Below the pieces are notes generated by a model that ran no database searches, was not told the DNA's origin, and saw only the letters and a list, made by a program, of their open reading frames with translations. This document shows positions 4,306 through 47,700 of a stretch of 64,000 bases of DNA, piece by piece. The stretch is from positions 62,001-126,000 of the forward strand of contig VCJN01001147.1 of NCBI GenBank assembly GCA_006384855.1, given 5' to 3'. The first letter of the stretch is position 1; each line of letters starts with the position of its first letter. The position numbers and the translations under genes are program-made. This DNA comes from Tetraselmis striata. Lineage: Eukaryota > Chlorophyta > Chlorodendrophyceae > Chlorodendrales > Chlorodendraceae.

Positions 4306-7300
4306 ATGGACCTGTCGCTGTTTCAGCCCTCAGGGGCGGGCGACCCGGCGGCCGGGCTGTCCCCAGAGGAGGCAGCCACTGCCAACGACATGCTGTCAGG
4401 AATGATGTCCGTCAGCTTCGAGGACATGGTGGCGATGATGGACTCCGAGCTGACGAACAACAGCGAGCCCGGCGCCGAGCGCGCGCTGTCCAGCGACTTC
4501 AACCACCTGCTGGCCGGCGTTAGGGGGCCCAGCCGCGGGCCGTCCTCCTCGGTGTTGTTTCCGGGCCTCAGCAGCAACATGAGCGCGGAGCTCAGCCTTG
4601 CAGCGGTACAGCTCGCCAGGCATGCGCAGGTGAATCTGGCGCCCCAGGGCGCTGGACCTAGTCACCAGCATGAGCCGTCCCGGCTCGGTTTCCAGGCACA
4701 GCCATACGCTGCCCAATGGGGCGGCGGTGGCGCGCTAGCCGGAGGTCTCCCGCCACCGCAGCAGCAGCCGTTCCAGCAGCAGCAGGCGTTTTATCAGCAG
4801 CAGGCGTACCACCAGCAGCAGCAGCTCTACCAGCAGCAGCAGGCCTACCAGCAGCAGGAGCAGGAGGATGGGAGCGGACAGCAGGTGTACCACTCCCAGC
4901 AGCAGCAGCTGTACCAGCAGCAGCAGCAGCAGCAGGGGCAGGCGGAGCAGCACGGCTACGGGCAAGGGTCGGGGTACTACTTCCAGGGTACTGCCACTGC
5001 TTACTACCAAGGTGGACCGGCAGCTGCAGCAGCAGCACCTGCAGCAGGAGGCGTACCAGCACTTTGACTCGCCGTTTGCGGAGCAGGAGCACCTCTCTGA
5101 CCCGGAGGGCAGCAGCGACCACGGGCGTAACCATTGGCAGCCGGAGCAGCCGCAGGTGCCCATCACTCCCTGGCCCGACCCCAATCTGAGCGCCAGCGGC
5201 TTTGCCCTAAGCAGCGGCCTGTCCAGCATCGTGTACGGCCTCAACCCGGCGGACAAGTTTGGCAGCGGCAGCAGTGATCAGGTTGCGCCGTCGGCGGAGA
5301 CCATTAAGCAGCACGAGAGTGCTCTGGTGAAGATGCACCCGCTCGCCAGCAACCTGCCCCGCGACGCGCCCAAGGAGCAGGGCATGTCCACGCTCAAGCA
5401 GCTGGAGGAGAAGGTGGTGCGGGAGATCAAGCAGGGCGCGGAGCCGAAGCAAGACGTGCTGGTGCAGACGCTGGCGAACCACACGGTGGAGAAGCTGCAC
5501 AGCCGCAACCCCAACACCCTGTACGCGCAGATGCTGCGCCAGGCCAAGTCGCGCGTGAAGCTGCCCGGCAAGGGGCGCACCAGCGCCAAGGAGCGGATGG
5601 ACGGTCTGGAGAGGCAGGTGGCGGACCTGCAGGCACAGAAGGGGTCGCTCACGGACGAGACGGAAAACCTCTCCTGCAGGTGGCTGTCCCCCTCCCACCC
5701 CTCCCCGGGCGGTTGCCGGCACCCGCCGCCCCTCCCAATCCCAAAGTGCACACGCCACGCCCGTCCGCGCGGAGCCGGAGGGCGAGGGGGGAGCGCTGCC
5801 GCTGAGCGCTGTCGGTGCCCGCAGGATGAACATCATGGACCGGATGATCCAGCTGCGGCGCGAGATTGCGGACGAGCTGCTTGTGCACAACGTGCGGCTG
5901 GATGAGCAGCTGCAGGTGAGAGCGCGCCGCGCGCGGGCATGGCACACTCGGGGGGCGGGCCTCCACACTCGTGGTCACGCTTTGGGTTCGCCATGTGGTC
6001 TTCTTTGTACCCCCTCCTGAACAAGGCAAACCTTTATTTATCAGAGTACACGAGGACTGTAGCATGCATGCAGTCTCCGGCTTGATGATGCAAAACACCT
6101 TTGTGAGCTGTGAACGCAATCGTTATACGGGCCTGGCAATGGGCAAGCGGAAATGTGAATGCATCCAACGACGAATGGTTATCGCGCTTTCCTCGGGTAG
6201 ACTGGGTTTCCATGTGAATGCATCCAACGACGAGCCACATTAGCGGAGGCCATCACAAGTTACCATGCCGCTGCCGGGAGGTGAAACGCCGCACACCTCG
6301 GTTGTTTCGGGCGCTTGCCACAGCAATTGAGTAGTGATGGCAAGACGCACTTGGCGATGAGAACATTGCAAATGTGACCCCGCCCTACCTGCCAGAGATA
6401 GCGGGCCGGTTTCAACTATAAACATAGACGAAAGTATAGCGGGCCGGTTGCGAATCCTCCTCACACAATTTCAGTCTAGGACTCCGGGGTCGTCTCGGTG
6501 CGTTGTGCCTAACTCCGTTTTGAGCTGGCTTAGCTGGACTGCGCTGCACTTGAGTCCGCCAGCTTGAGTTATAAAGTTCCAGTGAACGCGGTAATGGCAG
6601 CTCAGTTTCGTTTCATGCTCGAGCGGGACGGTTGCGCACCGCGCCCTTAAGCGGCCAGCTCTCGTGGAATGAGGTCAACCCCTAAGCAAACCATCCGTCG
6701 ATTTCTCTCATAATTGGCGCGTTTCCCTGTCGCGCCATCTGCATGTCGTAGGGTGCATCACGTGTCTAAGACGTACCAACTTGAATTAGCCTGGCTTGGT
6801 AGTGGGAATAATTGCACGAGCCGCTAAAGTGCTGTGAACTCTGAGGGTTATACTGTACGTAAAGTCTTACTTCAAGCCGGCGTAATCAAGTTGCGCAGCT
6901 TTCACACATTAGACTACTTGCGCGCAGCGCTGGTTGGCACCCGTGGCGAGAACAAAGCAATGGGAGCACATGTCTCCAGGCGGCGCTCGCACGTCCTGCT
7001 TTGCTTCTACACGTAGGGAGGGAGGGAAGGGGGAATTTGCCTACAGGCGCATCTGTGCGCGCGGCCAAGCGCTCACCCTCCCCCGCTTCCCCTTTCCTGC
7101 AGGCCACCAACCTGGAGAAGGACATCAAGCAGTTCTTCCTGGAGAATGGCCAGGTCGACTGGGCCGGTCTGCCCAGCACGAAGACCATCCCCGAGATCAT
7201 GGCGCGGCTGCGATCCTCGGTGCGCCCCCCAATTCCCCCCCCCCCCCCGTCCCCCTTCCCAAATCCCCTCCTTCCTTTGAGCGTCCGCGCACCCACCCAC

Positions 7301-8830
7301 CCACCGCGCAGTGAGACAGTCGCCCTGACAGCCGACCCCCTCATGAACCATGCAGGGCGTCTTTGACGAGATGTCCGCCTTCTTCACCGACGTCGTCAAC
7401 AAGCTCAAAACGCTGCTGTCGGAGATCGACAAGCTGCCCCCCGGCACGGACGCCGCGGCCTCCCCGCTGCATGCGTCGCTCGAGAAGGAGGTTCACAGCA
7501 TGCAGGCCTACATGCTCCAGAAGCAGACGGAGGGGGGCTACTTGGTGGCGCACTGGCAGATGGATGTCCACGACAAGGTAGGGAAATGGACTGGGGTGTT
7601 GGTTGTTGCAAGCACCCAAGAGGGCGGTCCCCGGTTGTGCTACCACTACTACCCGTGCCATTTCTATTGGGTTGGCGAATTGTCCGGAAACTATTACCCT
7701 TTTTCTTCAACATGAGTCGGGGTCTCCTGGAAGGTTTCGAGCTATGTTGTATTCCAATGCATTTTCACGCCGATATTGGTTGTCTTCCTCTTTTCGCGGG
7801 GCATCAAAAGCAATGCTGATATATGTAGCGAACCATCGCGTGGGTACAGTACACCTCTGACGCTGCCCATAGTGTACCCTCTGGCAGCCTTACCCTCCGC
7901 CACTCGCGCCAACCGGTGCATGTTGCTGTGCCGCGAAGCCACGTCCTGACGCGGCACTCTGCGGCGTGCTGCGCGGCGCACAGGCAACAAAGATAAACCC
8001 GACGCTAGCGCTGGACCTGCAGACGCGCTACCGCAGCGTGTACCCGACCCTGCAGCTGACGCTGCAGCAAAAGGAGAGAATAAAGCTCTCGTACGACATC
8101 TACACAAAGCGGATTGCCGTCATGAACGACGAGAAGCAGGCTCAAGTCCAGATGCTGGAGACGCTGACGGTCACCGACGGGGACATGTCCATGCACGAGC
8201 GCACGAGGTGCGGCAACGGGCGCTCTTTCTCCCGCCCCCGCTGTCCTTGTTGCGGCGGTGCGCTTGGATGGACGGCAGCGGGCCTGACCAATGGCCAAAT
8301 GGGCGGGCCGCGCAGGGAGGTCCTGAAAGCGAACCAGGCGCTCTGGCGGCTGCGCTGCATCAATGAGAACTACAAGGAGGGGCACATGATGTTCAACTTC
8401 ATCGTGATGAGGAAGATTCTCAGCGTCACGCAGCTGGCCCGCCTGACCGTGCTGGCGCACCCTGTTTTGCCCTGCGTCCTCATCGTGCGCCCCTGCCTGG
8501 CCACGTCCCGACCAACCTGCACGCGCAGTGCTCCCGCGTGTCATGCTACTTGCCCTGTACTAAACCCTCATTCGTTATGCTATGCCAGTGCTATCCCAGC
8601 GCTAAGTTGGATAGCACTTGAGCTCTCCCACTTTCTGTCACTGCCACTGCGGCGCGCTTGTCCCACTGTTTTGCTGACCCGCGGGCAACTGCTTGCAGAT
8701 ATCTGAGCTGGTGGCACAGGACCTGAAGAAGACGTACGGGCTGGACACCACAGAACGCACAGCGGAGGAGATTCTCAAGATGTGCAGGAACTACAACAGC
8801 AAGTACATGCACCTAATGACCAACAGCTAG
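4306..8830 (+). CDS. Gln-rich bZIP-like coiled-coil protein, putative transcription regulator
   Basis: Seven exons: 4306-5679, 5825-5915, 7103-7219, 7356-7577, 7984-8207, 8316 to 8448 or 8463, and 8699-8830. Splice phases agree throughout and give about 768 aa. The start is the ATG at 4306 (M-D-L-S-L-F). Residues about 165-230 form a Gln/Tyr-rich tract encoded by CAG repeats. A Leu-heptad region preceded by basic residues follows (A-K-S-R-V-K ... L-E-R-Q-V-A-D-L), continuing into exon 2, then a helical C-terminal half with an M-M-F-N-F-I-V-M-R-K-I-L-S-V-T-Q-L-A block like the C-terminal domain I associate with algal bZIP factors. Exon 1 needs a one-base shift between about 4990 and 5030: the Gln-rich frame stops at 5067 while the coiled-coil frame is open. 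The basic region is atypical, so DNA binding is inferred, not shown. Confidence 0.7.
6153..6233. repeat. 22-bp direct repeat inside a bZIP-like gene intron
   Basis: A 22-bp word beginning ATGTGAATGCATCCAACG occurs at 6153-6174 and again at 6212-6233, inside the 1.2-kb second intron. No function is recognised. Confidence 0.7.
6300..6440 (-). repeat. Intron repeat family IR150, divergent copy
   Basis: The core CCCCGCCCTACCTGCCAGAG at 6378-6397 is the reverse complement of the family core (T-C-T-G-G-C-A-G-G-C-x-G-G-G-C-G-G-G-T-T), preceded on plus by GATGAGAACATTGC as in the copy at 20050. It lies in intron 2 of the bZIP-like gene. The outer boundaries are uncertain. Confidence 0.5.
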
Positions 8831-10530: not shown

Positions 10531-14145
<3,615 letters not shown>

Positions 14146-18075: not shown

Positions 18076-21000
18076 CTACCGCCGGGCGCGCTTGCTCTTG
18101 CTCTTGCTGGGTGGGGGCCGGTCTCGACCGCTGGCGCGCAGGAAGATGCGCAGCGGCACGCTGAAGATGCCGTAGTCCTCGCGGATTGCGTTGGTGAGGA
18201 AGCGCGTGGCGCTGTTGCCCGCGTCTACTTTGCTGCCGCTCAGGAAGGCGCTGAAGGTGGGCGGCCGCCGCTTGATCTGGCGTCCGGGGGATGGAGCAGG
18301 GGTCCCACGGTCGGTACTGTCCTCGTTATTCACGCGACCTTTTTTGTCCCGCTGATGGCCACTACTCGCGCGGTGCGACAAGTATACATGCATACATATG
18401 GACAATGTATGCTGGGTTCTTGCTGACGGGATGTCGGGACGGGGATCAGGGAGCAGATAGGGTGCCAAACGCGAATCAAAGTTCGCGCGCGGCATTTTGT
18501 TTTGGACCCCCTCCTCCCCCGATCGCCCGCCCGCCGCCGAGGAAACAACAAGTCGGAATTAATTAGTCCGCGACCTACTATGTCATTGTATTCTCAAATT
18601 AGTCTAACACGACGAAATGTGTAAGGAATTAGCTGCACGTACTTTCGCCTAATTCGTCGAATTCGCCTGAAGAAATGCGCGAAACTCTACGGAGTCGTGT
18701 CGCAAAGACGCCGCGAAAAAATCGACGCGGTTTGCCGAATCGATTTAATGTTTTGGGGGGGGCGCGAGCCCGATGTAAAATGCACCGAGAGCGGCGGCCC
18801 GCGCACCTGCGTGATGTACTTGATCTTCGCGAGCCCGGTGGAGCTGCCCGAGCCGGCTTGGCGCGCCTTGAACTTGGCCATCCAGCGGTTGAGCTCGCCG
18901 GTGCCGATGCGCCTGTTCCACTCCAGGTACGTCGCCTCCATCGCGGGCATCAGCGCGCCGAGCCCCTCGCCTGCGCGCGGCGCCGGGATGGCCTCAGTCG
19001 CCACCCCCTGCGCAACACCCCTCGCGCCCCCCCGCCACCCAGCGATATCAGGGGTGGGCACTGGGCAGCAACTACGGTGCCGCCGATGCGGTAATAACAA
19101 CACCGCTAATAGCAACCCGCCTTGCCAGCCAAAAGTCAAATGCAGACGAAGCTATTGCCGAACCATAGCGAAGGATCCCAAAGGTTGCACGCCAGTAAGC
19201 CCGATAAAAGCCTTATAATACGGGCACTTATGGGTGCGTCCGCGCTCGTCCTCCACACCGGGCAAACGGAACATGTGTGACGTTTCGACGTGGACCATGG
19301 GGTCCGCCATCAATAATCGCAAGTGTTGCAAGAATGGGGACGTGGCATTGCACGTTCCGCTACCTTTTTCACATCCATGTGGATGCCTTCCGCGCACCCT
19401 CTGGCAACGGATGCCCCCCCCCCCCCCCCCCCCCCCTTCACACACAGAGAGACACACGCCTCTCTCTATCTGTCGCTGCCTCCCTCTGTGTGGAGTTTGA
19501 CTTTTGGGCAGGTTCGAGGGGCAAAGACTGAAGCAGAGCGTTGGCGCAGGAAACGGGAGCCGGCAGCAGCGTGGGTGGCGGCCAGGCGCGGCGGTGCGCT
19601 CGCCTGTGGTGGCGGAGGTCCAGAGGCACGCGACGCCCGGCACCTGCGGCAGGCTCTCGCGGACCGCTGCCTGCAGGCGCGCCAGCACCTTTTCGCGCTG
19701 CTGCGGCGGCAGCAGGTCCGCCTTGTTCAGCACCAGCACCAGCCCGCGCCCCTCCTCCACCACCTCGCTCGCCATGGAGAGCTCCCGGCGCGTGAGGCCC
19801 TGTCAGCACACCGGCACGCGACTCCTCAAATCAATCGGCACGGCCGCAAGTGCGATCCGGATGGCATCCCTTTGTTTAGCCCGTAGTAGCTCCATGGGGA
19901 AGTTGTGTGTGTGTGTGGGGGGGAAGGGCACTGACATGTTCAGTCCTGTCTTATGCCCAGTGGCAGCTTGGCGCTCGAGAAAGTGGTATCGGAGCCGATT
20001 CAAAGACTAAACATGTTGCGATTATTCCTACACGGGTGCCGCCGCGGTAATGAGAACACTACGAGGCAGAACCCGCCCCGCCTGCCAGAGGTCAAATGTA
20101 GACGCCACTGCAGCGGAACAATGGTGAATGTTCTGGTCTGTACTTCGCCTGCGCAGTATCGACACGGATATATCTGAATGCCAATACGGTAATCCTGCGG
20201 GCGCGTGAAACCTCTAGCAGCAGGAGCTTTTTAATGAGGTTTCAGGTGCCCGCACCATTTGTTTGTTCGCCCCCGGGACAGGACTACTTATACCGTACCG
20301 TTACCGTACTGTTAATATCGTCATATCCGTCATATAGTAGTTCTTTACAGATGAGCCATATCGTCACATCTAATCCTTACACAGTCGCTATCCTGCTTGA
20401 TGACGGCTGATTCATTTGCGCAGGTAAAGTTCGGGTTAGCCCAGGGATATTACGTAAGCGTCATGCAAACGAACGGAACACGAAAGCTGTTGGGCAGCCC
20501 TTGCGCGCCGAGAGTGGCCCGCGCTCCCTCGGGCGGAGTGGCGCGACAGTGGCCCGCAATGAAACTTATTAGCCCCGTGTCTCGGGACGGCCCACCGCGC
20601 GCACCTCGGTGCCCGCCGCGGCGGCGTGCGCGTCCACCACCAGCCCCACGACATGCGAGAGCCGCAGGCTGCGTTGCCGCTCCATTGCCGCCATCTTGGC
20701 CACCGCACCGCCCACGTCATCGTACCTTCACACCATTCGGGAGGGGGCACCGGAGCGGGCGAGGGGGGATTTGAGGTCAGCTACGTGTCGAATAGCCCGC
20801 CAAGGGCTGTCAGTGCTAATATGCGCGCTGGGTGACCGCCAGGTGTCACGTGCTGAGGGGAGCCGTGCCTCGACTTTCTCTCCGCGCAACAGGGGACACC
20901 ATGTACATGGCAAGACAATCCCCATGGGCTCCCACCGACTGTGCCCCCACTTACTCAAACGGCAACGCCACTGCGCCATGCTGTCGGCGGATTTCCGTAC

Positions 21001-23591: not shown

Positions 23592-23624
<33 letters not shown>

Positions 23625-24156: not shown

Positions 24157-24187
<31 letters not shown>

Positions 24188-24244
24188 CACCACCACCACC
24201 GCCGACGCCCTCTCTCCCTGCGGCGCGCGCGCGCGCCCTCCCTA

Positions 24245-24281
<37 letters not shown>

Positions 24282-24282
24282 A

Positions 24283-24332
<50 letters not shown>

Positions 24333-24350
24333 ACAAATGCTTTCGCAGAA

Positions 24351-24382
<32 letters not shown>

Positions 24383-25023: not shown

Positions 25024-25054
<31 letters not shown>

Positions 25055-31523: not shown

Positions 31524-34500
31524 TCAGCAGGTGGCGGGCATATTGGCGTGGCACTCAGGGTGCTTGCTCCGCTCCGCTTTCGCCTCCGCCAGGCGCTCCT
31601 TGCCCACAGTGAGCTCCAGGAAGGCCTGCAGCCGCAGCGCGGAGCGCCATCGGCCGTAGTGCTCCGTGATCCAGGCCCGCGGCGCCAGGCCGGCCGCAAA
31701 CTCCGGGCTGCGCAGCCGCTCGATGGCGGCGCGCACGTCGTCCTTGCCGCTGAAGAAGACGCCGGTGCGGTCGTTGATGTACTTCCAGCCGCCCACGATG
31801 TTGACGTTCATCAGGACCGGCACGTTCAGCGCCAGCGCCTCGGCCGCCGAGCGCGGGGAGGCGTCTGCCACGCTGGGCGTGAACATCGCGCGCGAGCGCG
31901 CTACGTCCGCGAGCCAGTCGATTGTCCCCTCTGCGCGCGGCGAAAAAGCCGGGGGGGGGGGGGGGGGGGTCAGGATCCCAATGTCCATCATCGCTCAGAA
32001 AAACAGCCATATGTCAACCTAGCATTCCCAAACAAAAGTCTGCAGTGTCCACGAAGCAGACAATGGTCCTCCATTGCCCTCAGTTCGTGCGAGCAAGTAG
32101 GGCACGGTTATAAAGTGTCCCAGTCCATGAGCCTGCCAGCAATAACCAGTCCCAACAAAATACGCTCCGGTACTTTCGTGGCGAAACCCGCAGTACTGTC
32201 ACAGCTGCCATGGGAAGTACAGTGGCACCGGGTTTGAGTCGTCGGCGGCACATGCGCTGCCTCCTGGTCAGCGAACCTTGCAGGCACGGTGCGGGAAAGG
32301 GACGGCTGTCCGAGTGGGCGCCGCTCACCGAACGGGCGGTACACCAGCTGCCCGCTGTCCACGTAGCGAGCCAGCTCGGGCGTGTCCTTCTTGACGTCGC
32401 GCGTGGTGAGCACCTTGAGCCCCATCTCCATCATCACCACCAGGCAGTCCTTGGCCAGCGTCCAGTTGCGGTTGTAGTCCTGCCACGGGCCGCCCTACGA
32501 ACCCCGGGGGCAGCGCTGCCTCCGTCAGAAACTACGCGGGCATTGGGACCCCACCGCACCCTGGTAATTGTGATACGACTTACTTCGTGGCGAAGTGTAG
32601 TAGGAATGGCGGCACGTGGCTGCTTTATGTATCGCATACATTGTCGGGCGCGAAGAACACCTAACTTTTCCTCACAGCATTCGGTGCCGGTAGCCCGTCT
32701 TAATTCTGTCTATAATTCCGATGTGATTGGGCTCTAAAGGGTAGAACGCGCTCTCTAGTCATATACGAATCGTTTTCGAACAATGTCGCGCGGGTACAGG
32801 ACCAGTTGTAACGGTCGGGTCACTGTTGGGACTGTGTTGCTGTACTGCGAGTTGAAATGGGTTTATTGGGCTTATTGCCCGAGACGAGCCACCATTGGCA
32901 GGACTATGTGTGGGACCGTGGGGTTGTGCCATCTGTCTTGTTGACAGGTGTGTTATAAAAGTGTAGTTGGGGTGCCATCATAGTCGTCGAAATGTCGAGG
33001 AGACGGAACGATGGCCAAATCAGTAGTCGCTACTGCAACGGCGACTATGGTAGTAACCCACCCGAAGTAGTCGCTAGTATAAATCGCAAATACTCGGAGA
33101 GGCGAATGCAGTATAAAGTTCCGCTCTTGGACTGGCGCAGGGGCAGCGGCATTCGCGCTGCGCCGGCGTTTTAAGTCTTTCGGTGCATGAGTGGGACGGG
33201 TTCGTAATCTACGGCTCGGAGTCATTGCCGTCAGGCTATACACAGGAGCGCAGGGACGCAGAGGGGCGACAGCGTTGGGGGAGCATAAATACCCACGTTG
33301 TCAACATAAACGAAATCAAACATCTTCGGGGGAGCATAAAGACCGACGGGCTTGATGGTGTCGGTGTCCACAAAGTCGCTGTGGCTGATGCGCACGCGCG
33401 GCACGCCGGCGGGCAGCACCGCCCCCGGGTCGCGCGCGCAGTGCAGCCAGCCGTCCAGCGCCTCGAACATGGCCCAGTCGTCCGGATTCTGCGCCGGGAG
33501 GGCAGGAGGCGATTCAGAGCCACTCGGCGCCCGCTACGGCCCAAGCATGCAATGGTCTTGGCGGGGCGGACGTCGGGCGGCGAGGGGCTCACTCTGCGCA
33601 CGTGGCGCCCGTCGTACGGGTTGTGCAACTCCTCGGGAAAGTGTTCGAAGGACATGACGCCGATGGCGATGTAGCCCGCGTTCTTCAGCCACCAGAACGC
33701 GCCGCGCTCCATCTCGCCCTGCGCGAAAGAGGATCGCACAGCCTGTCACCGCCCATTCTAGGCGTAACTCTGAAGGCGGGCAAAAACAGCGTCGGCGCGT
33801 CCCAGACTGCACTTCCGAACGGACCAGTAGATAAGTGCCCCTGAGCGTGTTAGCATGGGTGCGGCAGCGTCGTCACGTACGCCGTAGTACTCGTCGAGGT
33901 AGGGGCAGGTGACGCCCAGCACGCCGGTTTCCTTGCCATACCAGTCGCTGATGATGTTGTATGGCAGCTTGGGCATCTCGCGCCAGCTGGCGATGATGTA
34001 CCCAGGACGCTCCTTCTCCGGCGACCCCGCCGCCCGCCACTCGGCTTCGATCTCCTGCAGCGAATGCGCGGCAGGTATCACAATCAGAGCGGGCATTCAG
34101 ACTGCTGCCTGCCGGGCGAGGGGAGGTGACGACGACGACGACGGTGTGTGTGTGTGAATATGCGTGCGTGTGTGTGTGCGTGCGTTCGTGTGTGTGTGTG
34201 TGTTTTGGGGGTGGGGGCGGGGGGGATCGCACAAGCGCGCGCGTCTCCACGAGGTCGTCCAGGTCCAGCGGCCCCTCGTAGATCTTTCTGCTCACCAATC
34301 AGCAGCGGGCCAGTCGGGTGAGATACACAGCCGGGGCGACGGGCAGTGCACCAAGGGTCGGGGCGTCGTCGCCCACGGGTTTCATATGGGCCCTATATGC
34401 AGAACCCCCCCCCCCCCCCCCCCCCCACCGGGGGTCGCGAGAGGTCGTCGGCGGCCACAGCGGAACATAATCGTCGCCATCGTCCGGCACGGTAGCCCAG

Positions 34501-36697
34501 GTCGTCATGCCCGCAAAAGCAAGAGAAACCCAAAGTCCTGGAGGGAATCAGCAATACATCCCTGCAACCTGTGCGGCGTACACTCCTGATGCCGACTCCG
34601 CCCCAGATATTGGGGTCGGTGGCCTGACATATTGGGGTCCACGGCATGCTACTCGGTACATAAAAGAACGATCGATGTCTGTCTGCCATAGGTTTGTCGA
34701 CACATGGAGTTTGGCAGGCAAGGCGGGTTCTTGTTGGGCCTATTGTCATCACCGCACCCCAAATCACTATTAACCATCCAAAAAACGAACCGCAGGAGGT
34801 CACAGCGGCGCCATCCAAAGTCACATGCCATTTGACTGGCGAGACCGCTCTGCGCCCCGTCGACCCCCCCCCCCCCCTCCCCGCCTGCGGCCTCCAGCCT
34901 GCAAAAGGCTCTCACCGCGGCGCGAGCTCCTGTGTCGCACGCCTCATGTTGTGCTCCGCGAACTCCTTCATGCCGGTGAAGCGCAGGTCGTACGGCACGT
35001 GCAGGGCGTCGTACGCCTGCTCCAGCGTGAGCTCCTCGCCGGACGGTGGCTCCCCGGACCCGCCCGACAGCTTCTCCTCCATCAGATGCACTACAAGGCG
35101 GGGGGGAGGGGGGGGTGGGGGGTGGGTCATGCTGCTGCTGTCAGTAACAACGAATTGCAGCGTCCGTCATGATCAGCCCAGCTAGGCGTGCCGACGCGGT
35201 GGTGGGAACACCGCAGATAAGAGCTACATTCCTTGTGCGCCAGACGATAATGCAGATGAAAACATAGCGAACCTGGTACCAAAGAACCTGTTGGCAGCGT
35301 GCAACCCCAGTTTGAGACTTGCACCCCGGTGTGTTATAGATGCGCCGGCACCTGTACACCTGCTCATTGCATCGCCACTTGCCGGCACTCAAATGCAATT
35401 GTGCTTGCTGTTGCCATCCCCCCCCCCCCCCCCCCCCCGGCCCTCCCCTGCATGCCCCATATCATGTAGCCCTCACCGATCTCCTGAGACGCCTCATGGA
35501 GTTTCTCCTCTATCATCTCCCGCGCTGCCGCCTCCACACGCTTGGCTGCAGCAGAGCCAGCGAGAAAGGGGGTGGGGTTCAGGTCAGCAACCCTAGTATG
35601 GTCTAACGGCAGGCCGTGCCCCCCCCCCCCCCCCCCCCCGGGGTGCGCCCCTCACCGATCTGCTCCTCCACCTCGTCCAGCGAGTCACTCAGCAGCGCGA
35701 TGTCCTCACCCTGCAGCTGCCCTGCACACCGATTCCAGGGACGCCATCAGCGCGGCGGCCGGGCGCATGCGTCGGGGGTTCAGGGCGTCTGACCAGCCTC
35801 CGCAGGCACAATGGCAGGCGAAGGCGGCTGATCCCGCGGGCGCAGGCGTTTCGCCACAGTCATCACGACAGTCCCCCCCCCCCCCCCCCCCTCCCACCCA
35901 CCCACACCCCCGGGTGCTGACGTATGGTGCCAGGCAGGCAGATATACCCTCTGCCGCCACCGCTCCCACGGGCGCCGCAGCAGCGCTGAGCATGGCGGGT
36001 AACATTGCCATCGCCGCGTTTGCCCCCTCAGCAGCTAGTGGGGCAGCTGCCTGGCGGTGGTGCCCCCCTCCCCCCTGAGGACCCCCCCCCCCCCCCCCCC
36101 CCCCCGCGCGCGCGCGCGCTCTGTTGCACGTGTCGTCCTTCCAGGCAGCAATGGGCACTCTAGTCCACAGTGCCCTACCTACCTCCTCCTCAAAAACCTT
36201 TTTCATCTTTGCAGGGGAAGAGAGGGCATGAAGAAGAGGATGCCGCGGGAGGGGAGGGGGGGGGGGGGGGGGGGGGCAAAGGGGGAGAGGGGGTCACACC
36301 TGAACCCGCGGAGAATCCGGTGTGTGGGCCTGCATCCGGGAAATCAGCTGGTTCAGCACCTGAGCAGATAAAGTGGCAATGATACCGGGCGTGGAGGGTG
36401 AAGTGTGTGTGTGTGTGTGTGTTTGTGGGGGGGGGGGAGTGCACCTGGGAGCGCAGCATGAGAGTGGCTGAGCTGCATGCCGGCATAGATCCCATATGCC
36501 ACCCCCCCGCACAGTAGCAGCACAACTGCCGCTTGCACAGTGCTTGCCCCCGGCGCCGAGGTCAGCCCCTGAGCGCGCCGCTTGCGAGTCACCGGGCCTG
36601 GTAGCAGGCCATGGCTGCCGCCGCCGCGGCCGCCGCTCAACCGGGATGGCGAAGCGGGGGCGCCCACGATGCTGCGGGGTCTACCCAGGCCCGACAT
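31524..36697 (-). CDS. Type II membrane, Golgi-style glycosyltransferase-like protein
   Basis: About 12 exons (high to low): 36697-36445, 36359-36300, 36206-36183, 35710-35656, 35545-35477, 35090-34916, 34287-34233, 34054-33881, 33718-33593, 33488-33297, 32494-32329, 31930-31524; roughly 585 aa. Phases agree from exon 3 to the stop. Exon 1 has a short basic tail (T-R-K-R-R) and one membrane helix (V-Q-A-A-V-V-L-L-L-C-G-G-V-A-Y-G), then a Glu-rich, helical stem, the layout of Golgi glycosyltransferases. The catalytic region has Y-D-L-R-F-T-G, P-P-K-M-F-D-F-V-Y-V, Q-D-Y-N-R-N-W, and E-G-T-I-D-W-L-A-D followed by S-P-R-S-A-A-E-A-L-A-L-N-V-P-V-L-M-N, the last resembling the donor-binding end of GT-B enzymes. 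I recognise similar proteins in algae and stramenopiles but no named family. The exon 1/2 phase does not fit by one base. Substrate unknown. Confidence 0.8.
34143..34202. repeat. TG/CG microsatellite in an intron
   Basis: An interrupted TG repeat lies in the intron between exons 7 and 8 of the glycosyltransferase-like gene. Confidence 0.85.
34705..34765 (+). repeat. IR150 repeat, core only
   Basis: GGAGTTTGGCAGGCAAGGCG followed by GGTTCTTGTTGG and CTATTGTCATCACCGCACC matches the family core and 3' end. It lies in an intron of the glycosyltransferase-like gene. Confidence 0.6.
35195..35345 (-). repeat. IR150 repeat in a glycosyltransferase-gene intron
   Basis: Read on minus: CAAACTGGGGTTGCACGC, GGTTCGCTATG, TTTTCATCTGCATTATCGTC, GCGGTGTTCCCACCACCGCG, TCGGC. 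The order matches the family although the G-rich core has diverged. Confidence 0.65.
36402..36424. repeat. GT microsatellite next to a G-run
   Basis: A GT repeat is followed by an 11-base G-run in the first intron of the glycosyltransferase-like gene; on the sense strand a C-run follows the donor, then CA repeats. Confidence 0.85.
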
Positions 36698-38759
36698 GCT
36701 GCCCGAGCTGCGCTCCCCCCTCGGTCACGCTTCCTGCGCTCACTCCCCTGAGCCATGTCCAGACAGTTCGCATGTCAGGCGGTGCGGCGCAATGATGCGA
36801 GGATGTGGGTGAAAGTGCATCAAGATGGAACAATGGCAGAGGAGGCGGGCGGAAGGAGCTGGAGAGGGAGGCGGGGGGGGGGGGGGGGGGTAGATGACGT
36901 GTGCATGAGTTTGGGATGTGATGGGGAACGGGAATGGAAGAAAGCAGAGGGAGCAAGGAAGGCTGCCTGCGGCCATCAGAGGGGCTGTGTGGGATGGCAC
37001 GAGGGGAGTGCACATGCAGCCCACACGGCAGGGTGGTGCCTGGGAACCTGGATACAGTGGCCCTCACGTCTCGATGTGTGTTCGAGTGAGTGCATGTCAG
37101 GGTGGTAGTGGTAGTGGTGGTGGTGATGGGGATTATGGGGGCGGGAAGGGGTCACGGGAGGGTAGCTCCACCGGTGCTGAGCGGCTGATGGCGGAGGCCG
37201 AGCGCCTCGCCCTCGCCTCGCCCTCCACCACCGCCCGGCCAGCGGAGGGGGACGACGTCGCCCCGCGTCAGCAGACAAGCGGACCGGCCGGACGGGCACC
37301 TGCTCGATTGATATGATTTCTCCCGACGTGAGCGACGGTTGTGGTTGTGGATGGGGGTTGAGGGGAGAGTTCTGGTCCAGGCGAGCTGATGCTGCTCGGC
37401 CGCGCCCTGAAACGCGTGGACTGGCGCGCGCGGACTCACGCGCGGAGTCACGAGCGTGGACTGATGGCGGGCACCGCTTCCATTCTGTCGGCGGAGACCA
37501 TCCCGCGGCCGTTTTTTTTCTTTTTTTTTCGCCCCCGGGACAGGACTGGCACCAGTGAAACCCTTGCAGCGTCTCTACGACGGCCGTTTAGGCAGCAATC
37601 CAGCTACGGAAAGCCCTGGGTAGGCGACGCTCCGTTATAGTCATCAAGCAAATTGCCGAAGCATTTCGCAAGACTAATTGGAGGCCAGTGACGGAATTTC
37701 CAACACTGTTGGATCACCGTCTAAAACACTGCCATCAAAATACCCGGCACTGACCACGAAAGGTCCGCGGCCGTTATCCACCGGACGATGCGGACGTTGC
37801 GGACGAAGCGCATCAGGCTAGGGTCTGCACATCTGCGCTAGGGTTTGAATTTGAATCAACGATGCTGCAGTCAGCAAACACTACAGGTACATACTGTAGC
37901 CACCGACTGGCCTAGGTCGTCGGTGTCATCAACACTCGGGCGACCGTACGGGTCGCTAGCGTCGCTCGTCCCTCGCGCATCCGGCGGTGGCATACGCGAC
38001 GACGGGTGACGCGTGGAAGCGACTCCAGGCGCTATAAAATGCAGGGTACAAGCAGGGTACAAGTAGGGTACCGTAGCGAGTACTGTACTGGTGCCGTGTA
38101 GTATGATACCCGGATAAATGCTGGTGCTGGCGCTGGCGGTGCTGGTGCTGCGCGGCTCGCGGCGGGGCCACGAGGCCAATTTGGCGGCGGCCAGCGCTGA
38201 TCGTCGGGCGCGGAGGGTGGCCAGAGGAAGATTGGCAGGGCGACGTGGGCGACAACAGATCGCTTGGCACGGCTCCCCGGCTACCCGTGCACGACTGCAG
38301 CAGATTGATAAGATGCCAGCCGCGCACGCTGCGACCGGAGTGTCTCCGCTCCCTCCAGACCCGGCGGGGGCGTTCCTTGTATGCTGCCCCCACCCTTCTC
38401 GACCCCGGTCATCGGAAAGGATTTAAACTTTTTAAATATGAAAATACTTCGACAGCTTTATTTGAATTCTGAGCGCAGCACTATATGTCGGAGGGGGGCG
38501 CAAGTAGAGCGCCGGCCAGCGCGGCGTGCGACCCCCCCCCCCCCCCCCCCCTTCCCTACTTATCCGCATCCTGGGCCCTCGTTGGGTAGTTCGGTTTGTG
38601 CGCAGCTGCAAAGGGGCGGCTGTTGGGTTCGCTTCTGCCGCCGAGCCATGGCCGCAACCCTGACGCCGCCGCGTTGACCGCTTTGAACCCCCCCCCCGCT
38701 TCGCCCCCTCCGCCGTCACCTCCGCCCTTCCCCCCTTCCCTTCTCATGCCTCGCCACAG
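36698..38759. other. Divergent intergenic region between the glycosyltransferase-like and BRCT genes
   Basis: It should hold the promoters of both divergent genes and the unplaced first exon(s) of the BRCT gene. A short ATG frame at 38648 with good context (GCCGAGCCATGG, then A-A-T-L-T-P-P) is a candidate first exon, but its phase does not join the first clear exon. A second R1 copy is at 37512-37575. The stretch 38.0-38.1 kb has repeated AGGGTAC words. Confidence 0.45.
37512..37575 (-). repeat. A-tailed repeat R1, copy 2
   Basis: T8-C-T9 at 37512-37529 precedes CGCCCCCGGGACAGGACTGG and the rest of the unit to about 37575. Read on minus it is a unit ending in an A-rich tail, nearly identical to 890-945. 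Confidence 0.75.
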
Positions 38760-41700
38760 GGATGCTCCGTCGTGTTGGACCTGCTGGACGCTTCCGGGCA
38801 GAAAGATGACGCTATGGAGGCGCAGCTCAGCCAGATGATCCTAGCCCATGGTTGCCCCCCCCCCCCCCCCCCCCCCCCCCCTCCTTCCCCTGGTGCCTCC
38901 GGCGCACAATGAGATCACTATCCCGGTATAGCAGCCTGGGGCACTCGTGACCGTATTTTTCCTCGTTGGGGCGCAGCAGGGCTGTGTGCTGCAGTGGGCG
39001 GGTGGCTGGGTGGGGGCCTGCAGACGCTCATCCCGCCCGAACGTTTATACTTTCTCTCCCCCTTTGGGAGGGGTCAGGATGCACGCCCCGCATCAGGACG
39101 TGCAGGCGTCCAAATGCTTCTCGCAAACATTGACGCCGGTCCATACTGCTGACTTCCTTTGTGCCATCAGGCGGAGAGCTTGCAGCGCCAGGCGCGCAGC
39201 ACCACACGCACGTGGTGTGCTCCAACATGGAGCAGCCGGTCGCGCAGGCTGCGCTCGCCTCGGGGCGCCAGCTTGTGTCGGAGTTCTGGGTGCACGCGTG
39301 CTGCCGCTTCCAGACCCGGCCGAGTCCGGAAGACGAGGTCGCTCACCCCTCCAAGCCCCCCCACTCTCCTCCCATGCCCCCTCCCCTTGCCGTTTGCCTC
39401 CGCCACCGTGTTTCCACTCTCAGCCCCCTTCCAAATGCGCCGCCTCCCTCACATGCACCCCCCTCTGGCGTCCCATCAGATCTTCTGGAAGCCGCGGCCG
39501 CACAGCGCCAGCACGGAAGGCGCGGAGCAGCTGCTGGTGTGCATCACTGGCTTCACGGTCAGGCCCCCCCCTCCACCCCCGACCCCGGCTTTGCCACGCT
39601 CATCATCGCAACTCCCTGTCAGGCACAATTCCTCAGCTTCACCAGGCCCTTTGATTTACACACTTTGAATGGGCACATGATCCTCGACTTTGACCCCCTC
39701 CCCCCCTGTGAGAAGGCAAGTGAATGGTCGATATGTATCAGCACATATCACGAATGTAACACAGACATATCCAAGCAACACTGCGAGTAAACTGTATTTC
39801 TTTGTGCCCGCGGAGGCACTTAAACGATACCGATGCGTCTCTCAGACTATACCCTGACTATTGCCGGTCTACTCGGATGATGGGCACTTTATGCTATATT
39901 CCCCTGATGCTCATTCCATACTTACACACCTGGGGCCTGCTGTTACTTTCACGCTTATCTGCACCCCTCTCAACCCTAGCATGATGCATGCGAATGGTGC
40001 GGCGCTTGCAACGCAGGGCATGGAGCGCCGCATGCTGAGCTTTGCGTGCCAGTGGATCGGCTTCCGCTTCGAGGCGCAGCTGTCGCGCGCCACCACCCAC
40101 CTGCTCACCTTCAAGCAGGAGGGCGCCAAGTACGACGCCGCGCTGCGCTGGGGCGCCGAGAGCGTGGCCGCGGGGGGCGCCGGCGGCCCGCACGCCGTGA
40201 ACCACCGCTGGCTGATCGACTGCCTCAGCCTGTGGCGGGTGCTGCCGGCGGGTGCGCTCCCCCCCCCCCCCCCCCTCCCTTGTGCATCAGCCCATCCTCG
40301 CCAACTTAATGCACATACAGATGCTGGCGCAGTAACACAAACACTCCGAAAGTATTTGAGGCTTGTAACGAGGCTACTTGCAGGGGTGCCTCGGCTCTAT
40401 ATAGGAGAGGAGAGCCCTCCAAGTAGCGCTCTGGGGACGCTGATCCGACACCCCCCCCCCCCCCCCCCCCCCCTCCCCCCCACCCGGCCCACCTGCCCGC
40501 TGGCAGACCCCTACAAGCAGCACAGCGGCGAGGTGCTGCTGAGGCACCCCCACCTGCTGCCGCCCCCGATCAGCTCCACAACAACCAGCTGGCCAGCTTG
40601 GGCAGCCGCAGCCCCGAAGGCATCGCCACCCCGGAGGCCCTACCGGGGGGTGCGGAGCCGGCCGCGGCCGGGGTGAAGCTCGAGGGCGTGGAGCAGGCGG
40701 CCGGGGGGTGCGCCAAGGGCTCCCCCGGCGGCGCGGCGGCCCCTGCCAGCGCGGAGAAGGAGAACGAGGCGCCGGGGGAGCAGCGCGGCGGGCCCAACCC
40801 CAATCCCAATCCCGCCAACGGCGTCGCCACCGCCGCAGCTGTGGCGGCACCCCCGCATGCCCCCGCACTCGCCGCGCCGCGCCGAGGCAGCGCCCCCTGC
40901 GACGGCTCCGCTCCCTCGGGGCCCTCGGACTCGGAGGCCTTCCTGGTGCGTGCCCCCCCCCCCCCCCCCAAACCTGACTCCCCGTGGCCAACAACACGAG
41001 TTGTAGAGACACACTATAATTATGTTTGGTGGGCATTCTATAAAGAAGAAGCAAAATCATCGAATACTCCAAAGACCCAGAAACGAGCATGGCTATAATA
41101 TTAAGTTCCGTTCTCATCCGTCTAGCGCTCTGCTGATGAGAAAGCGGTGTAGCCTTCGCTGTTGATCACGATACCGGTAAGAATGAACCATCCAGGACAG
41201 TTTTCTTCATCTCTCTTGGATGGGGATTGTTTTCTGCCGCGTGATGCGGAAAGGGCAGCGCGGTGCGGCTGGGCTGAGCTGAGCTGGTTGCGTGTGCCGG
41301 GCGCGGCTGCAGGAGGCGCAGCGGACGACGGGGCTGCTGGTGGATGCGCTGGACCCGCTGGGGACGGGCGCCCCCGCGCCGGCCCGCCTGCCGGCGCTCC
41401 TGGGCGCGTTGCATGCGCCGCCGCCTGCCGCAGCTGCCGCGACTGCCGCGACGCCGGCCGCGGAGCCGCCCCCACCCGCCACGGAGCGCCGCCCGGGGAG
41501 CAGCGCCCGGCGGTCCGCCACCCCGCGCGAGGCGCGGACGCCGCGACAGGCCACGCCGGCCACCGCGGCGACAGCGCCCCCGGCAGCTACCGCCAGCGCC
41601 AAGCAGGTGGGCGCCCACACGCGCGACCGCCAGGCTCACTAGCGCCGGCCACCCGCCAGGCACCTGTTCCCCCCCCCTTCTTCAGCGCCTGGCCCTGTGG

Positions 41701-44700
41701 GACGACCTTGGCTTTCTGTGCAACCATCAAACGGATCCACAAGTTGATATCTTGCTGATGAACTACTCAAGCTCGAGCGTTTGAAAGGAACTCCGAGCCA
41801 CACCAGACAGTTCCAAACATGAGAAGCATACGAAATGCCATCACGGCCGCTGAGGTACCAATAAGAGTCCTTTGTATAACCCCGAGTTGGGATTGCATGC
41901 ACGCAGTGCTGTTGTTACCGCGACAGCACCCGTCTAAGCATACTAAATGCCATCACGGGTGCCAAGGTACGAATAAATAAGAGCCCTTTATGTGAACTCG
42001 AGTTGGGATTGCATGCAACCTGTAAGTACAGTTGCTATGGTTCCGCTATACATTTGTCCTCTGGCAGGCCGGGCGGGTTGTTCGCAGTGCTGTCGTTATA
42101 ACGTCGGCACCCGTGCACAGTGGCGATTCGGAATACGTTGTCCGGCAAGTAGTACGACACCGCTGGAATGTAAAGTGGCAATGCCTTGAGTGGTGTTCTC
42201 AATCTGGTGATAGAACTGACGAGGATGGTGGGGTGCAGGCCCCGGCGAGCAGCGCCCAGCGGTCCGCCACCCCGCGCGAGGCGCGGACGCCGCGACAGGC
42301 CACGCCGGCCACCGAGGCGGCAGCGCCCCGGGCAGCTACCGCCAGCGCCAAGCAGGTGGGCGCCCACACGCCCGACCGCCACGGCTGATGCCATGTGCGC
42401 CGGCCACGTGCCTGCCACCTGTCCACCCCAGCGTCCCTCCATCTCCCTCTTTTGTCACCGGCCCGACCAGAGGCGTGCACCTCATTTTGGTGTGGTATCA
42501 CCATCAAAGCGGCCCATGAGTCTGTGTGTCGTTGGGCTGCTTGGCAGCGAGTCTTCACCACCAACTGCGAGCCACTACCTGCGATAGCCGCCAGTCTCAT
42601 CAGGATATCCTCGGCCCGTGAAATATCCGCGCTGCAGGGCGCGGGGTATTTATTGAGTTCACCGCGTGAACAGTCGCCGCCTCTGCGGTGACAGTCATTC
42701 AGTCAGCCGGTCGATCATTTCCGCCGTCCTATCGGGCAAGGTCTGGTCCCTAGCTGGACCAGACCACCCTGGAGGATGCGCCGCACAAGGGGCGTTACTA
42801 CTGCCATTACTGCCTAACGATTTTCTGTGACACCCCCCGATGCGACTGACAAGGATGGTGGCGGGATGCAGGCCGCGACAGGCAGCGCCCGGCGCCGCGC
42901 CCCCATGAGCAGCCGCAGCGCCGGCAACCAGGCGGGCGGGGCCTCCCCGCCGCCCACGGGTGGGCCGTGCATTGCGGATGAGCCCATGGAGGCGCCGGCA
43001 AGCGAGGGCGGCGAGGAGCCCGCGTGCGAGGCGCAGCCTGAGCCCCCGTCCGCGCAGAGCCGGCTGCTGGGCCGCCGCGTGGCGGCGCGCGCGGGCCGCC
43101 GGCTGCGCAACGGCACCGTAGTGGCGTGGGACGACGCGCAGCAGCTGTTCCGCGTCAAGTTTGACGGCCACGAGGCGGAGGAGGCGCTGGACGAGGCGCA
43201 GGTGCGCCATGGGAAGCCCCCCCCCCCCCCCCCCCCCCCCCCACCCCCCTTCCATTTCCCCTCCTTCTGCCGAGTGGCGGAGTGCCGATCAACGATGGCA
43301 GCCATCAGCTGCATCAGCGGCGGAACGACGAGGCGATCAGTGATTGTCAGATGCATAATAACTGCTGACACATCACATCGAATCTCGCAATGCGCCGCGA
43401 TTCCTCTACGTGTCGGACCAATTTGACTGGGATCGCTGCATTGCTGTTGAACAATCGACTTCTGGATCGCCGTGGCTTTAATCAAATGCGTAGCGTGTGA
43501 CACCCCGGATGGGATAAAGGCAGTGGCGTATTGCATTAATGCGGATGGTTAGGTTTCGAGGATGGATGTGGACCCGTGAGGCCCTTTTGGTCGGGCGGGG
43601 GGGGGGGGGGGGGGGGGCAGCCGGCCGTCCTCTGAGCCCTCTTGCGCCCCCTTCCGCGGCGACTCCAGGTCACGGGGCTGCTTGTGGACGGGGACAACGA
43701 GGCCGAGCAAGACGCGTCTGGCGAGAAGCCGAGCGCCGCCTCCCCGCCGCCTGCAAAGAAGGCCAAGACGGGCCGCGCTCCCGCCAAGAAGGGAAGCAAG
43801 AAGGCGGCGGCGCAGCTGGCGCCAGCAGAGGCGGCGGCAGAGGAGCCGGAGGCGCGGCCGGCCGCAGCGCCGAAGGCCGCCGCCGCCGCTGCAACGAAGA
43901 CGAAGGGCGGCAAAGCGAGCATGGCGGAGGAGCCCGTGCCCAGCAGGTCGCGCATGGTCGTCGCGCTCAGCGGCTTCCACACCGAGTCGAGGCGCCAGTA
44001 CACCGACGCCATCTTCCGCCTGGGCGTCCAGAAGTCGCTCAAGTCGGACAAGCAGATGTGGGAGCACGAGGTGCGGCGCCCTGGCCATGCATAGATGCGC
44101 ATCGCCGCGAAGCGGAGGCGCCACGCCCGCACGGAACGTATACGGCAGTCATTTGATGAATTACGACACCGCAGTCCTCAGTTCGGAAAGGGGTGTGACT
44201 GCGGGCTACATCAATTACTAGGTGTATCAGATTGGCGGATTGGCGGATGTGGGTCTCGTGTCCTGTCAGGAAACACCTCGCCTCTGCGGTCCATCTGCCA
44301 TGCCCACATGTCCACACGAGGTCATGTCTCACCTCATGGCACATGACCTCCTGTGAGCGGTGTCGTGTAGTGTCGTGTCTCCTGGCATGTGTGACCTCCG
44401 CGGATGGCCCATGCTCCGCCAAACCCCCCTGCTCACACCTGCTTTTGTTTATTACATATGTCCCGCGCTGTGGCTGGCATGCATGGAGGTTTTCGTATGA
44501 GTATGGCCAAGTTGTGCCATGCCGAAGGTAGGAAGAAAATATGGCCTTGCTTGCTATTTTTACATTGAACGTGGCAATGCCTTTCATGACCCGCTCCGCA
44601 CGTGCTGGTGTGGTAATCTTGGGCCGGCCGACCAGCTGCGTGTCGGCGGTTGCCCATTGCCTTTGTTCTTCTTCGGTGCCAAAGAGTTCAGCATCCGACG

Positions 44701-47700
44701 CGAAACTGAGGAATTCAGGAACCCTTCTTTGGGACCTCTGTGATCGGCCCCGGTGTTCTGTGCCTCTGAGTTGAGCGCGCGGAGCAGAGATGTCCAGCTC
44801 TCAGCCTCTCCCCCCCCCCCCCCCCCCAACCCACTCACACACACCAGGTGACCCACCTGGTGGCGCCGTCCCTGAGGCGCATGGAGAAGACGGTGGCGGC
44901 GATGGCCACGGGCGCGTGGCTGCTGTCCGCGGCCTTCCTGGACTCGAGCCTCATGGAGGGCCGCGTGCTGGACGAGGTGGGTGTGACGGCCCGGGGCAAT
45001 CGCCCGGTGGCTCCAGGCGGTGCGGTGCGGGGGGTGAATGGCTGAACTCTAACGCCCCTCGCCCGCCCGCCCCGTGGTTGCCAAGGCCAAAGCATAGTAG
45101 AGACGGGTCGCATTGTGTTTGTTATGATGATAGTACCCTCGTCTGGTGCTGCTTCCACCGCGCAATTGCTGCAGTGGACGTTTTCTGTTTCCTTTTCGGG
45201 TGGTTTACGTATTGCCTTTTGCAGCTAGCTCATGTTACCATGCAATACCATTATATACACTGAATCACGACTACTTGCTGACGAAAAAATACATTTCTTG
45301 GGCCCTGTAGTTCAGCTTCATCAGCTTGCGACAGAGCTGCCGTCACCTGCCACGCGATATGGCGACGTCTGGTGACAGTTTATTGTCTTGCGACATGTCG
45401 ACGTCCGCTCTTCCGTGGATGAGCAGCCATTTCCGTGTACTCCGACAGAATTCCGAAATTGCTCCGCCATCGCAGTCTCGGCATCCGATCTTTTTAAGTA
45501 CCGGTGCTGCATCAGTAAGATTGCGACCATTATAATGATATGAGTTTACTACTGCCATTCAACCCGGGATGTCCCCGTACTATTACGGCACTACAGTGCT
45601 CGGGCAATGATAACGACGCCCGCCCAGCGTATGGCTGGGAAACCCGTACGAGTACCCCCCCCCCCCCCCCCCCCCTTCGTAGTATGTATGCCGGCTGAGC
45701 TGGGCCGGCTGTCTGCGCAGGAGTCGTTTGAGCTGAGCAAGTGCGACCCGGCAGCGAAGGGCGCCATCAGTGATGTAAGCATTCTCCCCCCCTCCCCCCC
45801 CCCCGAACACCCGCGTGCCCGCCACCTGTCCGGGGCTTTGGTTCAGTTTGTGCCAAATCTTGCTTGTGTATATCTATCTATATTATATATATATATATAT
45901 ATTATTTGTACCAGGTATGTAATAGCTATTTTATTAGGGGCCCTTCCTCACTCCCACCAAGCAACCTTGAGTGAACAGTGGAATATACGCCACATGCGGC
46001 ACCCTTAGTGATTACGGCATGTATACACAAATATACGGTCAGCGCCAATATACTCACGTACATGTCCAGCAGAAGCCGCGTTGCTCATGCAATGTGTATC
46101 CTCGATGCGATCCGTTCAAGATCCGAGTTGCTGGACGATAAATGCTGGATAGATGCTGGACTGTATAAATGCGTTGGTACAATATCCGCCGGATCGCTTG
46201 TTGGATTGCTCTCAGCACGGCAGCGCATAAACATACTCTGCACCGGGAATCGACCTTCGCCCTGTACTACATCGGTTCGATCGCGGCCGCCATAGCGGAG
46301 CGCGGGGAGGAGGCTGACGGCGCGGATGGCGGCGCTGCTGCAGGGCGCCCCGCGGCATTGGCGCACGCGGCGGCAGCGGTGCGGGGCGGGCGCGTTCCAC
46401 GGCCTCAGGGTGGTCTTCTACGGGAAGGGCTTCAGCCCCACGGCGGACACCCTCACCCGGATCATCGAAGCCGGCGAGGGCAGCGTGCTCAAGAGGTCGA
46501 CCCCTCTCCTCCCCCCCCCCCCCCCCCTCTCTCCCCCTTGCTATTGCCCGGCTGACGTCCCCCATCCCCAATTGCTTGCCGTAAACACGCTGATTAAGAA
46601 TCATTGTGTCACAAGTTAATTGGGTTTTAGGTGTAGTTATTGACCCCCCCCCCCCCCTTTCCTCTCTGCGAAGAGGGAGTAACACTGTGAACTAGCTTGA
46701 ACCCATTCGAACACACCACACAGAGCGGGGAACCGGGATACATGCAGGTGATAAATACACCGGCATAAAATAGTAATATAGTTCTAAAAACACTGTAGAG
46801 TAGTGGATGTATACATATGGGTGCCGACGCACTGATGGAAATTATAAGCGTCAAGTTCGGCTACCTGCATGCAACCTATGAGAGCATTCGCTACTGTTCC
46901 GCTGTAGTTCCACCCCTGGCAGGCAGCGCGGGTTCTCAGTATTTGCCGTCCTCTTATGACCCTGGCTTACCTCATCGGCTCCCGAATGTTTATCGCCATG
47001 TATTTTTTATAGCGTAAAGCTATGCTTTTGGGATTGCTACAATAACTGACTGCCAGAGTAGTCGAAGCCAGAGTAGTGATGTTCGACTACTCGTTTGTTA
47101 ACGCCCGCCAAGAGAGTAAAAACTGTAGAACCTGCCAAAATCTACCAAGACCTATCAAATCAGGATACACCACGAATAAAGGGCGGAATCTTCAGCAGGA
47201 TGGTGGTATGAAAACAGGTCCTGTTTTTATTGACCCGCGGACCCTTAAATTTTAGAATATTGATCGCAAAGGTGGACTCCTCTAGTGTGGCCAGCGTGGC
47301 GCTCCTCACCGTGTTGGGCGGTCCACATCGCCGCTGCGCCCGCAGGTCGTATCCGTACACCAGCGTGCTGAAGGAAGGCGTCGACATCGCCGTCGTGGAG
47401 AGCTCCAAGTCGCCCACCGACAAGTGAGCGCACCCCCCCCCCCCCCCCCCCCCTGGCCGCCGGCACGCTCAGACCCCTCTGCGGTGAAGGGCAAACAAGT
47501 GTCCGAAACCCCAACGTGCGGGAAACGAGGGAGAGGAAGAGAGGGAGAAAGGGGGGGGGGGTCGAGGGAGGGAGGGAGAGAGAGGGAGATCCAATGAGCG
47601 CCTGGGACGTGCGCTTGTTGGCAAAGCAAAAGCACCCGCTGTGGCTTCTCCCGCCAGTGTGTGCCCCAAAAAGGCGCCGTAGCGACATGAGGGGCAACGT

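Follow-up and report, generated by a model that had tools for sequence, protein, structure and literature searches.

What kind of element is a short repeat that recurs, in either orientation, within the introns of a green alga? The question is raised by IR150, an interspersed repeat in a 64,000-nucleotide stretch of Tetraselmis striata DNA (contig VCJN01001147.1, positions 62,001 to 126,000; G000:C911:62001-126000 in our numbering of the 224-Mb, 2,903-contig assembly), hereafter the window. An earlier note, made from the letters of the window, named a short interspersed nuclear element (SINE), a miniature inverted-repeat transposable element (MITE) and an introner-type element as candidates. 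Based on the terminal inverted repeats (TIRs), the TA-flanked ends, the short length, the high copy number and the divergence of the copies, the MITE is upheld: IR150 is very probably an old MITE family, inserted mostly in pre-existing introns and mobilised in trans, probably by a Tc1/mariner-type transposase. The result gives an identity to a repeat dispersed through introns of this alga's genome. Enrichment in introns does not by itself indicate introners; the ends of the element, the length of intron left over and the target site distinguish an element within introns from a maker of introns.

Copies, ends and target site of IR150

The presence of repeated DNA at all 12 named places was confirmed by an nhmmer profile built on 8 window copies, which gave 12 matches above inclusion in the window (E 6e-38 to 0.004); these 8 of the 12 formed the training set, and their E-values are not independent. 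A second profile, built on window and genome copies, recovered the same 12 places and two partial pieces at 41843-41933. As the window copies had trained the profile, independent support comes from genome-wide landmark counts. The exact 17-base landmark TTTCGTCTGCATTTGAC was found at 71 places against 0 for the reversed control, ruling out a low-complexity artefact, and the 21-base landmark CTCTGGCAGGCNGGGCGGGTT, with at most 2 mismatches, at 1,164 places against 5, indicating high copy number and dispersal. Since this two-mismatch landmark is present in 28 of 86 copies (16 of 59 locus, 7 of 12 window and 5 of 15 TIR-locus copies), and in 13 copies of a stricter 56-copy set, the counts suggest a rough figure of 3,600 to 5,000 detectable copies in the genome.

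Besides this whole-genome search, the earlier note had proposed a consensus, which was derived from 86 matches of at least 60 bits, of 130 found in the window and loci, each with 150 bp of flank on both sides. Conservation spans about 173 positions with sharp edges. The repeat reported as about 150 bp is thus real, but the whole element is about 173 bp, the original landmarks omitting its first 40 bases or so; the model is non-coding and well under the 600-bp limit for MITEs. The note had seen neither a poly(A) tail nor a terminal inverted repeat. No tail exists, but the consensus ends are inverted repeats, TACGGGTGCCGACGC...GCGTCGGCACCCGTA, GC-rich and about 15 bp long. A 14-base word of the TIR occurs at 553 places in the genome, against 4 for reversed controls. 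Identity to the consensus has a median of 0.81 in 134 copies, and from this drift to about 80% the family is old and would long have been silent.

The flanking DNA was analysed at 80 left and 105 right ends of 135 copies, 185 in all; ends cut short, too far diverged or lying at the edge of a locus were dropped. Reading outward, T (73%) is followed by A (74%) and then by an unconstrained third base; further out, alike at both ends, A or T is preferred at +4 (70%) and +8 (66%), and T at +5 (T 40%, A 13%) and +9 (35%). Because the same outward preference is shown on both sides of the element, the target is an AT-rich palindrome centred on TA. Sleeping Beauty of the Tc1/mariner superfamily also has a palindromic target consensus (PMC5801840). 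The direct repeat at the ends was never longer than TA in 55 end-anchored copies.

In the loci, 28 TIR pairs span less than 900 bp, 26 of them 155-260 bp and two 740-770 bp, a set that is not deduplicated and includes elements other than IR150. Two such elements, of 186 bp in locus L072 and 178 bp in locus L085, carry the TIR at both ends with no match to the IR150 profile, as expected if one transposase serves several MITEs.

The copies in the window are as follows (E-values from nhmmer).

6353..6505, minus strand: diverged IR150 copy, TIR not recognisable; gene A intron; E 1.2e-13
19081..19249, minus strand: IR150 copy; Der intron; E 3.8e-38
20032..20141, minus strand: IR150 copy, 5' part diverged, 3' TIR at 20031-20045 (2 mismatches); Der intron; E 2.4e-29
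21553..21718, plus strand: IR150 copy, 3' TIR at 21705-21719 (2 mismatches); Der intron; E 3.8e-32
22843..23014, plus strand: full-length IR150, TIRs at 22843-22857 (2 mismatches) and 23000-23014 (3); Der intron; E 4.5e-47
23800..23907, plus strand: IR150 copy, 3' part unmatched, 5' TIR at 23800-23814 (2 mismatches); Der intron; E 1.2e-21
24933..24983, plus strand: IR150 fragment; Der intron; E 1.1e-7
25557..25721, plus strand: IR150 copy, 3' TIR at 25708-25722 (3 mismatches); Der intron; E 1.1e-35
34623..34757, plus strand: diverged IR150 copy; gene D intron; E 1.4e-12
35186..35356, minus strand: IR150 copy, TIRs at 35342-35356 and 35183-35197 (2 mismatches each); gene D intron; E 8.5e-20
41843..41933, plus strand: two partial IR150 pieces beside the 41954 copy; gene E intron; E 5.4e-7 and 3.8e-4
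41954..42114, plus strand: IR150 copy, TIRs at 41954-41968 (4 mismatches) and 42101-42115 (2); gene E intron; E 5.5e-35
46816..46984, plus strand: IR150 copy, TIRs at 46816-46830 (1 mismatch) and 46972-46986 (4); gene E intron; E 1.7e-27

Placement in predicted introns

Genes were predicted with a hidden-Markov gene finder that, starting from a small number of seed exons, trained itself on locus and window DNA. In the window, every one of the 12 copies falls in a predicted intron, in both orientations and with 7 in introns of the Der gene (gene C below), in agreement with the initial description, which placed every listed copy in introns, seven in Der and none in intergenic DNA. Under independent placement in the non-coding DNA of the window, the probability of 12 intronic copies is 4.7e-5. 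When the copies were shifted circularly with their spacing kept, 12 were intronic in 3 of 1,280 shifts, the unshifted one included, and at most 9 beyond 500 bases.

The wider sample comprised 98 loci and the window, in which 169 matches with E up to 1e-5 and at least 71 bp were reduced to 142 distinct copies. Of these, 121 lie in predicted introns, 3 of them with the intron state covering only 65-73% of the copy, and 21 outside; none is mostly coding. The claim that the repeat occurs almost only in introns thus holds within the window but is overstated beyond it. Exons of the same strand were predicted on both sides of 75 of the 84 non-window copies with more than 1 kb on each side, the others having exons of opposite strands (2) or on one side only (7). 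As a reference, 200 random non-coding points, all from one region, the window, gave 90 same-strand, 6 opposite and 74 one-sided cases, and 30 without exons on either side. The loci are gene-rich, with 72% of non-coding bases called intron, and for all non-window copies the excess over this share is clear (114 of 135 intronic, P 0.0004).

Proposed mechanism and alternative explanations

A transposase acting in trans, probably of the Tc1/mariner superfamily with a Stowaway-like TA duplication, would excise the element, which would then be pasted into TA sites. Insertions into exons would be purged by selection, and the choice of target would by itself reduce them about fourfold, since predicted coding DNA holds 10.1 TA per kb and non-coding DNA 44.4. 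The survivors would be copies outside coding DNA, chiefly copies in introns of genes that already existed, where splicing would remove them along with the intron.

Similar elements are described in several papers. Stowaway-like MITEs with TA duplications in or near genes are well known, such as BRAMI-1 of Brassica (PMC3626606), which like IR150 is short and non-coding, carries TIRs, lies mostly in or near genes and has no autonomous partner identified. Its target duplication is TA, with empty sites demonstrated, whereas IR150 is flanked by TA without such proof; its TIR is 33 bp and AT-rich, that of IR150 about 15 bp and GC-rich; and with 71 of 697 copies inside genes it is far less intronic than IR150. 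The Submariner MITEs of Pandoravirus salinus (PMC4495683) are also flanked by TA and were assigned to Tc1/mariner, but differ in their TIRs of about 100 bp, their virus host and the related transposase remnant found. In sugar beet, Stowaways are reported to be relatively enriched in introns, and the same paper cites this for rice (PMC12804786); in carrot the relative enrichment is in intergenic and upstream DNA (PMC8227079). No paper recognisably about the IR150 family was found in a literature search, nor were the letters CGGGTGCCGACGC in the literature searched; this evidence is weak. IR150 is a known kind of element, whose family is itself unmatched there.

Several results weigh against the proposed reading. 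No empty site was detected, either by comparing 91 joined flanks with locus and window DNA, which gave only tandem-array artefacts, or genome-wide for two paralogous contexts, in which every full match carries the element. The search for target duplications proposed in the earlier note thus yielded TA flanks and nothing longer, as TA duplication predicts, but no empty site as proof; alternatively, the TA might belong to the TIR as its outermost bases, with no duplication involved. Folding of two copies against shuffles gave z values of 0.82 and -2.97, one copy being no better than shuffles. No autonomous partner was found among the listed TIR places compared with DDE_Tnp_4 and DDE_3 matches, a limited set in which one may have been overlooked. 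The TIR of IR150 starts CGGGTGCC, unlike the plant Stowaway TIR, whose start is CTCCCTCC; IR150 is for this reason taken to behave like a Stowaway without being classed among those of plants. Predicted coding bases are overlapped by 5 of the 142 copies, by 2 to 49 bases, and the gene models are predicted, without RNA support. Among copies that had fetched no locus, the excess in introns is modest (47 of 56, P 0.026; in a looser set, 48 of 59, P 0.063). TA density does not explain the excess in introns over intergenic DNA: introns hold 42.4 TA per kb and other non-coding DNA 48.7, so that another cause is needed, which may be open chromatin, or intergenic DNA being replaced more quickly as newer repeats arrive. 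Intronic and other copies are equally diverged (109 and 16 copies above 130 bp, P 0.385), giving no support to a simple difference in age.

Assignment of the MITE to a superfamily other than Tc1/mariner is unlikely, though it deserves some weight. PIF/Harbinger (Tourist) elements duplicate a 3-bp TWA target, and at the ends of IR150 the third flanking base is unconstrained. The abundance of DDE_Tnp_4 in the genome (150 matches scored) would suit such an origin. Places of the TIR (100 of 553 with the exact TIR and 100 of 424 with a longer TIR) were compared with two transposase families, by eye for DDE_Tnp_4. Among these listed places only one, on contig C11 (locus L070, in both lists), has a DDE_Tnp_4 match nearby, 1.5 kb inside. 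By estimate, about 0.3 co-occurrence within 2 kb is expected by chance per 100-place list; this single place in two lists is not far from chance, and a PIF/Harbinger partner was rejected. For DDE_3 (PF13358), with 97 matches, the smallest distance from a listed TIR is 3.5 kb (contig C164, a weak tandem match).

A tyrosine-recombinase (YR) element at C29:139607-142812, with TIRs on both sides and YR-like peptides between them, was also rejected as the partner. When a 560-base query spanning its end was used, all 40 other reported matches broke off at bases 449-477, which is 24-52 bases short of the TIR at position 501 and indicates a separate insertion. The YR reading of the peptides is our own, the frames sent giving no Pfam match at E 0.01. 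At C29 this element ends about 45 bp inside a TIR element and has a direct repeat of about 163 bp, 84% alike, near both ends. Represented at L081:1001-1471 and in L095, it is abundant (41 genome-wide matches reported; 3,218 first-look candidates). On contigs C211, C1257 and C1788, units of about 2.68 kb are repeated in tandem, and each unit has a 437-aa frame with a weak DDE_3 match. The strongest DDE_3 frames are intact and mostly crowd on a few long contigs (C2605, C2385, C2441 and C554), which might be bacterial contamination, as a candidate only.

It is rather improbable, but worth testing, that the family or its transposase actively favoured the introns of certain genes, as a MITE targeting gene bodies. 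The clustering of IR150 copies exceeds chance about tenfold. In the window, 7 landmark matches were counted against 0.33 expected, a density that is selected because the window was chosen where the repeat was seen; in the less selected surroundings of the loci, 13 extra copies bear the landmark against 1.4 expected. Local duplication was rejected as the cause: the median similarity is 0.648 for 123 same-locus pairs (55 in the window) and 0.674 for 8,788 other pairs, and only 2 of 68 non-window same-locus pairs exceed 0.85. Since copies of the same locus are no more alike than others, the clusters are mostly separate insertions. Independent insertions that reach about ten times the mean density in a few places, such as the 7 in Der, would exceed what TA content or exon avoidance gives, and this clustering of old copies could reflect gene-body targeting or differential survival. 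A few tandem arrays of IR150 were also seen, at C2415:267870-271747 and C202:16188-16735, one with a period near 640 bp.

Creation of the introns by IR150 itself, as an introner inserting into exons and supplying splice sites, is very improbable. IR150 is mostly intronic, and introners with TIRs are known in several protists and algae (PMC9860276); those of Micromonas, Aureococcus and Symbiodinium (PMC9860276) and of Amoebophrya (PMC7789003) resemble IR150 in being non-autonomous and intronic, some with TIRs. An introner, however, constitutes the intron, with splice sites carried by the element or taken from the insertion site (PMC9860276), whereas IR150 lies within a longer intron in all 110 testable copies. 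Predicted exons of any size were present on both sides of these 110 of the 121 intronic copies. The earlier note had suggested looking for copies that span whole introns with splice sites at their ends, and none of the 110 fills its intron, the smallest remainder being 94 bp. The closest fit, in locus L087, leaves 41 and 53 bp of intron on its two sides. In favour of an introner, one copy, in L077, abuts a predicted splice site: a predicted exon lies 1 bp away, but the intron continues for 666 bp in the opposite direction. When only exons of at least 46 bp are counted, 109 copies leave at least 102 bp (median 585). After removal of IR150, 91 complete element-bearing introns (16 of them with several elements) have a median of 471 and quartiles of 360-733, against 480 and 240-667 for element-free introns (length-weighted, n=283). 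The residual introns look ordinary and no intron is filled; therefore IR150 is not an introner in this sample.

That introns retain IR150 for a function, as a strand-bearing RNA or a regulatory element, is less credible still. The mostly intronic position and the ordered landmarks would suit it, against which stand the two orientations (70 intronic copies sense and 51 antisense to the gene), the inverted terminal repeats and the wide divergence; moreover, no window copy matches Rfam at gathering thresholds.

Amplification by reverse transcription as a SINE, for which a short, dispersed, non-coding repeat and a separate tRNA-like repeat in the genome could speak, is hardly to be entertained, given that the element has TIRs and a TA flank, that it lacks both a 3' tail and a long target duplication, and that no tRNA or Rfam match falls on the window copies (A and B boxes of a Pol III promoter were not scanned separately); that ARAGORN found no tRNA in the window is a weak negative, the tRNA-like repeat at 55.4 kb being missed as well. 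This repeat of about 100 bp, at window 55449-55552 and in L095 some 32-129 inward of the TIR (about 84% alike), has by eye a tRNA-like T-arm, GGTTCGACTCC, and is a candidate tRNA-derived SINE.

Genes of the window and neighbouring repeats

Five main genes were predicted in the window. The models of Der and of the BRCT-domain protein are backed by Pfam, and gene B by a DAHP-synthase family match on an open reading frame (ORF).

4306..8830, plus strand: gene A, 9 predicted exons; no Pfam match at E 0.01; 1 IR150 copy
10531..14145, plus strand: gene B, class-II DAHP synthase, 8 predicted exons; PF01474 at 2.1e-64 on the unspliced ORF 11268-12350; no IR150
18076..27211, minus strand: gene C, Der/EngA GTPase, 15 predicted exons; PF01926 (MMR_HSR1) in two stretches and PF14714 (EngA KH domain); 7 intronic IR150 copies
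31524..36697, minus strand: gene D, 10 predicted exons; no Pfam match at E 0.01; 2 IR150 copies
38118..48610, plus strand: gene E, BRCT-domain protein, 16 predicted exons; PF12738 at 2.9e-11; 2 IR150 sites, one with extra partial pieces

These genes contain 22,905 bp of intron. Outside them lie 29,674 bp of other non-coding DNA, more than the roughly 25 kb first given as intergenic.

In gene E, a 96% direct repeat (41492-41632 and 42241-42381) overlaps two neighbouring predicted exons flanking IR150 copies, and is likely to be an internal exon duplication. A Der intron contains, between two IR150 copies, a fragment of eukaryotic 18S rRNA at 24201-24817 on the minus strand (202.9 bits, model positions 626-1112 of 1831). 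Long poly-G/poly-C tracts are numerous throughout the window, for example at 25014-25054 and 38855-38881. Beyond the genes, large inverted arms are located at 49.09-50.90 and 61.32-63.12 kb, with pieces 87-96% complementary, and exons predicted between them weakly resemble piggyBac, the match to PF13843 (E 0.008) falling below the cut-off of that family.

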